DNA from: Candidatus Gottesmanbacteria bacterium
GTDB lineage: Bacteria; Patescibacteriota; Microgenomatia; UBA10105; UBA927
Assembly (NCBI GenBank): GCA_016218215.1
Contig: JACREM010000042.1
Span: 1-34,185, forward strand
DNA length: 34,185 nucleotides
Direction of reading: 5' to 3'
Part shown: positions 29,975 to 33,651 of the stretch, in pieces
Layout of the letters: every line of letters begins with the position of its first letter
Position numbering within the stretch: the first letter of the stretch is position 1
The notes under the pieces: generated by a model
What the model saw: the letters and a program-made list of their open reading frames with translations, nothing else
Databases searched by the model: none
Told to the model about the DNA's origin: nothing
Program-made: the position numbers and the translations under genes

Positions 29975-30874
29975 CTATGAGAAGGAAAATTTCTTTGCAA
30001 TATAAATAACCGAAGCCAAAGAAAATACCCCAAGGCCTGCTGCAATAAATCCAAAGGTAACTGCCATCATTTTATCAATTCTCGGTGTATTATTAGATGT
30101 ATTGCTATCTGTAGTCACACCAAGAACGGACCCATCTGACGCTATGACCGTTTTTTCTTGAATGAACGCTTCATCGGTATCAGCCAAAACATCATTTTCA
30201 TCTTTTAAAGAAATACTCGGAGAGGGAACGCTTTTTGTACTCATCGAAGTAGGTGTCTTTGTACTACTGGTTGGAGTGGAAGTGGGAGACGGTGTACTCG
30301 TCGGAGTCGGTGTTCTGGTGGGAGTTGGAGATGGCTCAGGAGTAGGGGTAGGAGTTGAAGTTGGAATTGGAGTCGGAGTAGAAGTTGGAACGATGGGATT
30401 TAAAGGCAAAGAATTCAACGATTGAAAACTTGTACCACAACTATTGTCTGTATTTAAACACGCTCGAACAAAAAGCAGTTTTGCCTCATCCGTTGATGAG
30501 GATTTAATCCTACATCGAGTTAATCCTGACCAATATCCATCTACCCCTATAGCAACTTGAGGCATATCTACCCATGCGCCGGAAGAACCTGTGTCATCAA
30601 GCCATTTTGAACTTTGCGAATTAAATGTCTGCCCGTCGTTTAGGCTTGAGGTATTTCCACCAATTCTACATTTGACAAAATAATTACTTCCTGCGACAGC
30701 CCCACTCATCGTTGCGGTGAGAGTAAAGGCATCGCCGATTACAGGGGAATTTATATCGACGCTCAATGGGCTTATGCTGACTGCAAAAACGGGGTAATTC
30801 GATAAGAATAAAAGGACAAAAAAAAGAATCTCTGCCCGAACAACAGCTGAAAGAAATAGTCGATTATTGAACAT
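29975..30874 (-). CDS. Secreted/membrane-anchored protein with N-terminal beta-rich domain, long Thr/Pro-rich linker and C-terminal TM helix; unknown function
   Basis: Signal-like N-terminus (AVVRAEILFFVLLFLSNYPVFAVSIS), Cys-containing domain (YFVKCRIGG...TRCRIKSS...RACLNTDNSCGTSF), TSTPTPIPTSTPTPTPEPSPTPTRTPTPTSTPSPTSTPTSST linker, C-terminal MMAVTFGFIAAGLGVFSLASVIYIAKKFSFS. Confidence 0.75.
   Translation of the reverse strand: MFNNRLFLSAVVRAEILFFVLLFLSNYPVFAVSISPLSVDINSPVIGDAFTLTATMSGAVAGSNYFVKCRIGGNTSSLNDGQTFNSQSSKWLDDTGSSGAWVDMPQVAIGVDGYWSGLTRCRIKSSSTDEAKLLFVRACLNTDNSCGTSFQSLNSLPLNPIVPTSTPTPIPTSTPTPTPEPSPTPTRTPTPTSTPSPTSTPTSSTKTPTSMSTKSVPSPSISLKDENDVLADTDEAFIQEKTVIASDGSVLGVTTDSNTSNNTPRIDKMMAVTFGFIAAGLGVFSLASVIYIAKKFSFS
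30225..30392. repeat. Degenerate period-6 low-complexity tract encoding (Thr/Ser-Pro)n
   Basis: + strand ggagtcggtgttctggtgggagttggagatggctcaggagtaggggtaggagttgaagttggaattggagtcggagtag; codes for the TPTPTP linker on the minus strand. Boundaries approximate. Confidence 0.85.
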
Positions 30875-31991
30875 GCAGATAGAAGCTCACTGCTCCGTCT
30901 CCGTGTTCAATATATTTAATCTTAATAATACTACTTGTCCCACATGCTTGACTTGAGGAGTATAGTAATCCATCTTTTGGAGCACGAATTACGGATGAAG
31001 TCTTACTTACCATGTCTATACCCGTATGTATTCCACCACTATATGAATACCTCCATGACCACGGAGTCTTTCCGAAATGCTGAGTAATTATGACATCTCC
31101 TTCAAGCGGCCATCCCCAACTTCCGGAGCCCATGCGAACTCTCGCACCAATTTGATCATCGTACACATCTCTTGATGATACATACTCCTCACCATTAACC
31201 CATGCGCTATTTTTTCTAATTTCAAAATGAAGATGCGCCCCAGATGAACACCCAGGATACCCTGTATTCCCTACTAAGGCAATCGGATCACCTTGTTTTA
31301 TTGTGCCTATTTTGACGCTATCAATGAGGGCACGATCAAGAGCTTGCTTTTCTGCAAGCGCTTGAGCCAGTAGAGTCTGGTACACAGATTCATTATTTTT
31401 GGTTTGCTCGAGGAGCGCCTGTTTATCTTTTTTCTGGAGATTTAATGCTTGTTTTTCGCTCTCTAATACTGCCTGTAGTTTCTGTTGTTCAACTTTTTTC
31501 TGCTCCCTCTGATTCTTTCTTTCGCTTAAGGTATTTTGTTCTTCCTGATGAACGCGATATTTCATTGTTTCTTTTCGCTGAATATAAGAGAGATACACTC
31601 GCCTTGAAAAAAAATCTGCAACATTTGAGCTAAAAAACATAACGCCAAAAGGAGAAACTTGAAGTCTCTTGTATGTTTCGGGGATCCGGTGAAGAATGAG
31701 TTCCAATCTTTTTGTTTTTATATTCTCAAGCTCGTCAATATCACGAGTAAGAGAATCAATATCGTCTGACAATTTCTTTATCTGTCCTTCTGAAGCGCTA
31801 ATCTTTAGTATGCTAAGGGCAATAGAAGAATTAAGAATTGATATCTGCTTAGAAAGAGTATTCTCTTGACCTTGAAGTTCTGCAATCTTATTCTGTAAAG
31901 CCTCAATGCTGTTAGATTCCTCTGCAAAAACACTTCTCGACTGGAAAAATATAAAAAACGTTATACAAAAAAGAGCGAATAACTTTTTCAT
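30864..31991 (-). CDS. EnvC/PcsB-like coiled-coil protein with apparently circularly permuted M23/LytM domain
   Basis: Signal peptide MKKLFALFCITFFIFFQSRSVFAEE; coiled coil (ENTLSKQISILNSSIALSILKISASEGQIKKLSDDIDSL...RIPETYKRLQVSPFGVMFFSSNVADFFSRRVYLSYIQRKE); QGDPIALVGNTGYPGCSSGAHLHFEIRKNSAWVNGEEY followed by VIITQHFG...GGIHTGIDMVSKTSSVIRAPKDGLLY...GDGAVSFYLHVQ. Start moved to ATG 31991. Confidence 0.88.
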   Translation of the reverse strand: MKKLFALFCITFFIFFQSRSVFAEESNSIEALQNKIAELQGQENTLSKQISILNSSIALSILKISASEGQIKKLSDDIDSLTRDIDELENIKTKRLELILHRIPETYKRLQVSPFGVMFFSSNVADFFSRRVYLSYIQRKETMKYRVHQEEQNTLSERKNQREQKKVEQQKLQAVLESEKQALNLQKKDKQALLEQTKNNESVYQTLLAQALAEKQALDRALIDSVKIGTIKQGDPIALVGNTGYPGCSSGAHLHFEIRKNSAWVNGEEYVSSRDVYDDQIGARVRMGSGSWGWPLEGDVIITQHFGKTPWSWRYSYSGGIHTGIDMVSKTSSVIRAPKDGLLYSSSQACGTSSIIKIKYIEHGDGAVSFYLHVQ

Positions 31992-32011: not shown

Positions 32012-32905
32012 TCATCGCAGATATCGATTCACTGACACAATCCCACCGAGGCATCCGAGGAGGAACCCGAAACACGAAAGCGAACCGAGCATTATGATCT
32101 GGAAGAGAATAAATGCCTGACCGGTAAGAGAATTAAATATAAGCGCGACATCCGGAACAATCCCAAGAAAACTCATAATTGGCTCTCTTAAAAGAATCGT
32201 AACGATACTAAGCATGACCCAGCTTAATGCCCCCCCGATGACTCCATACATCCCTCCCTCCAGTACAAAAGGGGAACGGATATATGACGGAGACGCTCCG
32301 ATAAGCTTTAGTATCTCTATTTCGTCTTTTTTCGTCGCTATCCTCATGCCTATAACCGTCATAATGGTAAGAATTGAATTTATAGTGAGAATTCCCCCGA
32401 GGACGCCACCGGTGATGCGTATAGTATTTGTCCAGGAAATGAGTGAATCGACCACATCTTTTTGGTAATCAATAAGCTCCACTCCCTCAACACCATTTAC
32501 GAGCGATTCCAAATCTTTTAACATACTCGGGTCTTTTGCATTTACCTCAAGCGACGCAGGGAGAATATCTGAAGATACCATCTCAAGAAGCAACGGGTCA
32601 TTTTTGTTCTGATCCTGGTAAAATTTTAGCGCGTCTTCTTTTGAGATATACTTTGTCGATTCAATTTTTCCGCTGTCAGTAAGAATTTTTTTCACATGTG
32701 TCACTTGTTCTTCGGTCGCCTTGTCATTAAAAAACACCATAAGCTGCGGCTTAGACTCGAAAAACCGCAGCACACTCATAGACCCAAATGTTGCAAGCAC
32801 AAAAAATCCTGTCAATAGTATAGTGATAAACATCGACAGTATGGCCACGAGGGACTGATATGGGGATCTTCGTATGTGCTTCCACATTGTTTTCGTAATC
32901 TTCAT
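32012..32905 (-). CDS. ftsX: Cell division protein FtsX
   Basis: SMFITILLTGFFVLATFGSMSVLRFFESKPQLMVFFNDKATEEQVTHVKKIL...YISKEDALKFYQDQNKNDPLLLEMVSSDILPASLEV...DEIEILKLIGASPSYIRSPFVLEGGMYGVIGG. Confidence 0.95.
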   Translation of the reverse strand: MKITKTMWKHIRRSPYQSLVAILSMFITILLTGFFVLATFGSMSVLRFFESKPQLMVFFNDKATEEQVTHVKKILTDSGKIESTKYISKEDALKFYQDQNKNDPLLLEMVSSDILPASLEVNAKDPSMLKDLESLVNGVEGVELIDYQKDVVDSLISWTNTIRITGGVLGGILTINSILTIMTVIGMRIATKKDEIEILKLIGASPSYIRSPFVLEGGMYGVIGGALSWVMLSIVTILLREPIMSFLGIVPDVALIFNSLTGQAFILFQIIMLGSLSCFGFLLGCLGGIVSVNRYLR

Positions 32906-32907
32906 AG

Positions 32908-33651
32908 CTATGTATCTTTTTTTCCGTGTATCTCTTTCTTCTTATCATCCTGCCGCTTTTTCTCATGCTTTTTTTCATACCTGTATTTACCTTTTAACTC
33001 ATCGCTTACGAGATTTCCTTCGGATAAGGTTATGGTTCTTTTTTTCATGTCATCTACAATCGTTGTATTATGAGTCGAAACGATGACTGTGGTGCCGAGC
33101 TTTTGAATCTCTTCTAATATTCCCATAATTTCGCTCCCGGTCTCAGGATCTAAATTTCCAGTTGGTTCATCTGCTAAAAGTATCTTTGGGCCTCCAATTA
33201 TAGCCCTGGCTATCGCTGTTCTCTGAAGTTCGCCTGCGGAGAGTTGCAACGGAAATTTATTGTCAAAATCCTGTAAACCAACGAGCGCCATAACATCGTG
33301 CACGTCTTTCTCAAGCGCGCTTCCGTGTTTTCCTAAAATTTCAAGGCCGAGAGAAATATTTTCAAAGACTGTTCTGTCTGTCACGAGCTTCCCATCCTGA
33401 AAAACGGTACCCACGTGACGCCGTAAAAGATGAATTTCTGAATTATTAATGGCTTTGAGATTCCAGTCGCCGACAAATATATCTCCTGCTGAAGGAAGGA
33501 TATCTTTTATAAGTAGTCTCAGAAGTGTTGTTTTGCCTGATCCGGACGGGCCAATAAGAAACACAAATTCGCCGTCCACAACGGCAACAGATACCTCGTG
33601 AAGGGCATGTTGATTACCGTAAATCTTTGAGATGTTTTCAAGTCGAATCAT
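32908..33651 (-). CDS. ftsE: Cell division ATP-binding protein FtsE, with Lys-rich C-terminal tail
   Basis: MIRLENISKIYGNQHALHEVSV; LIGPSGSGKTTLLRLL (Walker A); LSAGELQRTAIARAI signature; ILLADEPTGNLDPETG (Walker B); tail KYRYEKKHEKKRQDDKKKEIHGKKDT. Confidence 0.95.
   Translation of the reverse strand: MIRLENISKIYGNQHALHEVSVAVVDGEFVFLIGPSGSGKTTLLRLLIKDILPSAGDIFVGDWNLKAINNSEIHLLRRHVGTVFQDGKLVTDRTVFENISLGLEILGKHGSALEKDVHDVMALVGLQDFDNKFPLQLSAGELQRTAIARAIIGGPKILLADEPTGNLDPETGSEIMGILEEIQKLGTTVIVSTHNTTIVDDMKKRTITLSEGNLVSDELKGKYRYEKKHEKKRQDDKKKEIHGKKDT

Follow-up and report, generated by a model that had tools for sequence, protein, structure and literature searches.

A circularly permuted M23 peptidase domain, widespread in Patescibacteria, in a probable FtsEX partner protein

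FtsEX moves a coiled-coil partner protein that is either an amidase activator, as in the case of EnvC, or itself a hydrolase, as in the case of PcsB, CwlO and RipC (PMC11627006). EnvC, the FtsEX partner of gamma-proteobacteria, is a coiled-coil protein beside FtsX whose C-terminal M23 fold has the canonical order and has lost its zinc ligands (PMC11627006), whereas the catalytic domains of PcsB, CwlO and RipC are of the CHAP or NlpC/P60 type. In canonical M23 domains the motifs follow one another as HxxxD, YxH, GDxIA and HxH; in LytM, zinc is bound by H210, D214 and H293, with H260 and H291 as catalytic residues (PMC4594094). Circular permutation of the catalytic domain is known from another family rich in wall hydrolases, NlpC/P60, in the YaeF/Poxvirus G6R and LRAT-like families (PMC6403190), but these have a cysteine-peptidase fold unrelated to M23. 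No published permuted M23, LytM or lysostaphin domain was found in the open-access literature. The M23 fold and the FtsEX context are known; the permuted, phylum-wide form reported here appears to be undescribed.

P0001, encoded in a 34,185-nucleotide stretch of a Candidatus Gottesmanbacteria genome (the window), combines a probable signal peptide and a coiled coil of EnvC-like type with one M23/LytM domain whose halves are reversed. ORF, HLH, HTGID, YLHVQ and stop codon (Table 1) lie where an initial annotation of the sequence had placed them. We consider it likely that P0001 is an FtsEX partner, i.e. a secreted coiled-coil protein with one complete permuted M23 zinc endopeptidase domain, for which we infer both the fold of the active site and gating by FtsEX.

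Table 1. Features of the P0001 locus, in nucleotide positions of the window.
Feature	Position	Strand	Basis or remark
ftsE-like ABC ATPase	32908..33651	-	Pfam ABC_tran 3e-31; adjacency to ftsX
ftsX, directly upstream of P0001 gene, 20 nt gap	32012..32905	-	Pfam FtsX_ECD 1.7e-17, FtsX 6e-8
Permuted M23 FtsEX partner gene, probable (P0001, 375 aa)	30864..31991	-	ORF and translation; full-length homologs in same genomic context
Probable signal peptide, aa 1 to ~23, MKKLFALFCITFFIFFQSRSVFA	31923..31991	-	Basic start, hydrophobic stretch, AxA-like end; judged by eye
Coiled coil, aa ~26-224	31320..31916	-	AlphaFold helices; EnvC similarity (phmmer, NCBIfam); Foldseek EnvC/PcsB/RipC
M23 C-terminal half, placed first, aa 226-271, GDPIALVGNTG...HLHFE...VNGEEYV	31179..31316	-	Pfam positions 61-95; hhalign columns 87-136
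Cys248, loop before HLH	31248..31250	-	Co-occurs with Cys350
HLH (H253, H255), catalytic His and zinc-ligand His by homology	31227..31235	-	Invariant in 40/40 homologs
New linker between old C- and N-termini, aa 272-292, predicted beta hairpin	31116..31178	-	AlphaFold strands 274-278, 283-287
M23 N-terminal half, placed last, aa 293-375, ITQHFG...HTGID...YLHVQ	30867..31115	-	hhalign columns 2-83
HTGID (H322, D326), zinc ligands by homology	31014..31028	-	Invariant in 40/40 homologs
Cys350, loop after DGLLY strand, candidate disulfide partner of Cys248	30942..30944	-	Co-occurrence
YLHVQ C-terminus	30867..30881	-	Catalytic His of Y-x-H is H373, followed by 2 residues
Stop codon of P0001 gene	30864-30866	-	
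ORF after P0001, 11 nt overlap	29975-30874	-	Pro/Thr/Ser-rich with C-terminal hydrophobic stretch; Pfam gives no confident match

The motifs of P0001 occur in the order GDxIA, HxH, HxxxD and YxH, each in a single copy. The Pfam M23 profile matches the protein in two pieces of reversed order, with profile positions 61-95 at residues 229-266 and positions 2-56 at 30858-31031, and Pfam detected no further M23 segment in the next ORF downstream. An alignment of the C-terminal region (A1; the window protein and 38 homologs) was compared by hhalign with a canonical M23 profile built from 57 domains, most of them from phages and several from Patescibacteria. In native order, two separate matches are obtained, to canonical columns 87-136 (E 5e-23) and then 2-83 (E 1e-20); with the halves rotated, these become one full-length match over 133 columns (E 5e-43), the score of which (247) nearly equals the sum of both half-matches. 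A reversed-sequence control gave no hhalign match. Since the rotated match covers each core column once, no core column has been lost or doubled; the breakpoint lies between canonical columns 83 and 87, immediately past Y-x-H. P0001 has its two halves exchanged, with a new linker bridging the former termini, and retains all catalytic residues. Whole-domain profile homology to M23 is found after rotation, and the zinc ligands (HxxxD and the second histidine of HxH) are present; the canonical motif order is absent, and the domain is therefore a permuted offshoot of M23 rather than a standard member. The initial annotation had proposed one complete permuted domain, with its cut at the YLH-to-GD turn and a single copy of each motif; the rotated alignment bears out both points, and the AlphaFold model described below supports the former.

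A P0001 homolog is present in 58 of the 59 relatives searched. HxxxD, YxH and HxH are retained in all 40 alignable homologs (window protein included), save for one row cut by a contig end, and the Y-x-H histidine is present in 39 of 39 readable ones. A search with the permuted model, suggested by the initial annotation as a measure of spread, gave full-span matches in about 84 of 380 sampled Patescibacteria genomes from 35 families; counted were matches from query position 17 or lower to position 150 or higher, and the order was verified directly in the fetched loci. A recurrence on this scale goes well past what chance could produce. ORFs classed as permuted number 109, duplicates included. 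Among 96 permuted ORFs that have a true stop, the chain ends 2-4 residues past YxH in 87 and exactly 2 residues past it in 65; in P0001, the initial annotation had already noticed the catalytic-strand histidine at the extreme C-terminus. Recurrence of the same order and breakpoint in so many independently assembled genomes, together with the single open frame, refutes a frameshift or misassembly, and a truncation or two-domain reading is rejected by the single presence of each canonical column and the absence of a second domain downstream. An artefact, including a remnant of two tandem M23 domains, accordingly has next to no probability; nothing beyond the odd order favours it, plausible as tandem duplication is as an evolutionary route. 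Neither the misassembly nor the downstream canonical domain that the initial annotation had warned of was encountered.

When the permuted domains are rotated and placed in a tree together with canonical ones, 75 of the 86 permuted rows fall into one group (SH-aLRT 96). The permuted label requires three changes on this tree, and as only one of them is forced by well-supported branches, a single origin of the permuted form in Patescibacteria is possible. At one locus (L217, G141:C37) the permuted-M23 gene adjoins another M23 gene, both orders being confirmed directly; at two others (G115:C2 and G194:C1) it lies beside a second M23 match that covers only the N-terminal half. Such adjacent genes may bear on how the permutation arose. 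The window genome also encodes one canonical-order M23 protein (G000:C22:17077-17364; L001, L069), with no FtsX beside it in the fetched stretch.

Structure prediction, likewise proposed in the initial annotation, yields one confident fold from both halves. AlphaFold predicts the domain alone as one compact unit (pLDDT 93.2, pTM 0.88) and the whole of P0001 with a pLDDT of 87.4 and a pTM of 0.65; the predicted strands keep the M23 order in permuted form, with an extra hairpin in the linker. We infer that both halves form one normal M23 active site. The domain shares all motifs, the strand set and the catalytic residues with the M23/LytM peptidases LytM, lysostaphin and EnpA (PF01551); unlike these it starts at the strand before HxH, ends two residues past the Y-x-H histidine and contains the linker hairpin. 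A Foldseek search of the PDB with the domain alone returned no M23 structure and no useful match, which the dependence of the search on sequence order would explain. With the full-length model the best PDB matches are EnvC (8tzl and 6tpi), PcsB and RipC, with 8tzl the only one to pass E 0.001. The coiled-coil helices are predicted at residues 46-109, 124-197 and 201-224; this region resembles EnvC most (phmmer; NCBIfam EnvC at residues 28-200, below its cut-off), a weak homology of a kind in which matches are prone to composition bias.

The layout is that of an FtsEX partner, with a signal peptide (judged by eye), a long antiparallel coiled coil and a C-terminal wall-hydrolase fold (AlphaFold, Foldseek). 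FtsX lies directly upstream of 75 of the 82 permuted ORFs whose upstream sequence is 400 nt or longer, which, together with the local gene order, supports the FtsEX association put forward in the initial annotation; FtsX itself is near-universal in Patescibacteria (149 of 153 genomes). Other modules occupy the same FtsX-adjacent slot. In 17 homologs a C39-like peptidase replaces M23 on the same coiled coil (L033, L042, L044, L047, L051, L053, L054, L056, L057 and L059-L066), with FtsX directly upstream in 16 of them and little upstream sequence in the remaining one. A single genus (g7) contains both forms, with permuted M23 in five genomes and C39 in two; the coiled-coil tree implies five changes between permuted M23 and C39, a count that is only indicative given the weak resolution of this tree. 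Canonical M23 occurs in the slot in seven sampled families. In other Patescibacteria lineages, FtsX-adjacent coiled-coil proteins have a C-terminal domain that is CHAP-like, as judged by eye only (L257, L259, L261, L264, L269, L277, L287, L290, L296, L299 and L304).

P0001 shares with EnvC the coiled coil beside FtsX and the C-terminal M23 fold, but its domain is permuted and intact. The closeness of the coiled coil to EnvC and the identical gene order would also fit a protein that, like EnvC, uses its permuted domain to bind an amidase and is no enzyme itself. This is quite unlikely: EnvC is without zinc ligands (PMC11627006), whereas all of them are invariant in the 40 permuted homologs, and sister lineages have peptidase-type C39 domains in this position. 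By analogy with LytM, the full set of ligands favours an active enzyme, and P0001 is most likely an FtsEX-gated endopeptidase rather than an EnvC-type amidase activator. The proposed logic would be that of PcsB, CwlO and RipC, in which the coiled-coil protein is the hydrolase released by FtsEX, with M23 in place of their CHAP or NlpC/P60 domains. FtsX would hold the coiled coil of P0001, and ATP-driven movement of FtsEX would release or align the peptidase, so that peptidoglycan is cut at division as in PcsB and RipC.

As a result of the permutation, the attachment of this predicted endopeptidase to its coiled coil would differ from that in EnvC. The last coiled-coil helix would enter the catalytic domain via the strand before HxH and not at the N-terminal edge as in EnvC, and a moving coiled coil would pull at the active site from another side. 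In the AlphaFold model, hardly any linker separates helix 201-224 from strand 226-231. The spacing from the coiled coil to GDxIA is 25-32 residues in 40 homologs, with a value of 26 in 20 of the 22 nearest; the linker between the halves, by contrast, varies from 5 to 29 residues among homologs. The near-linkerless join and the narrow spacing, set against the variable linker, are consistent with a coiled coil coupled to the pre-HxH strand. It is plausible, if speculative, that the permutation alters activation geometry or regulation relative to EnvC/PcsB-type partners. In a more specific version, control would be rewired: the coiled coil would be fused near-rigidly to a core strand by HxH, the Y-x-H histidine would sit at the free C-terminus, and strain, with no restraining arm, would set the geometry of the active site. 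We regard this version as possible and on balance doubtful. The permutation could also be structurally neutral, the protein working as a normal FtsEX-controlled M23 peptidase and its order being the fixed accident of a duplication followed by truncation, a reading to which we give slightly less than an even chance. It agrees with the retention of all catalytic residues, and the tree of rotated domains, with its single cluster of mainly permuted rows, is compatible with few origins. The presence of canonical M23, C39 and CHAP-like modules in the same slot elsewhere also makes attachment geometry seem flexible. The conserved cut site, coiled-coil spacing and exact C-terminus, on the other hand, hint at constraint, although simple homology can also explain them.

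Two cysteines may connect the permuted halves. Cys248 and Cys350 are both present in 36 of 40 homologs, both missing in three and reduced to a single cysteine in one (Fisher p 0.0004, kinship uncorrected). By analogy with the loop assignment of EnpA (PMC8269130), they look like residues of substrate-groove loops 3 and 2, respectively, and a candidate disulfide between them likely ties both halves together.

Permuted M23 is thus a phylum-wide form in Patescibacteria, with intact catalytic residues and tied to FtsEX, the activation of which is under active structural study. Canonical M23, permuted M23, C39 and CHAP-like domains in one FtsX-adjacent slot constitute a natural experiment in which it can be asked which geometry FtsEX needs. 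Since order-based annotation and fold searches miss or split a permuted domain, such domains may be under-annotated elsewhere.

All 53 M23 ORFs on viral contigs that contain both halves are canonical and none is permuted; about five viral cases with an apparent span across the permuted query are in fact canonical domains read in pieces. A plasmid search gave no match, and tblastn against phages no record covering at least 80% of the domain. Among viral proteins, the domain model has its best fold matches in the cyanophage S-TIM5 virion structural protein AEZ65701 and the P60 gp33 type. AEZ65701 (L226:8659-9153) contains an apparently intact permuted M23 segment, GDIIGWVGYSG...HLHME followed by HTGVD...FLAHL, with a second, degenerate M23-like stretch ahead of it and a tail lysozyme domain at the end. 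Its HLH/HTGVD/AHL order is permuted as in P0001, but it is a phage structural protein and forms a separate, long branch of the tree. In Synechococcus phages P60, DSL-LC07 and S-CBP1 (L223, L224 and L225), internal virion or tape-measure proteins have at their end a permuted M23-like domain that is degenerate (STGPHLDVK ... GSHGIDYG ... FLHG; no Pfam match). Cyanophages may hold a separate case of permuted M23.
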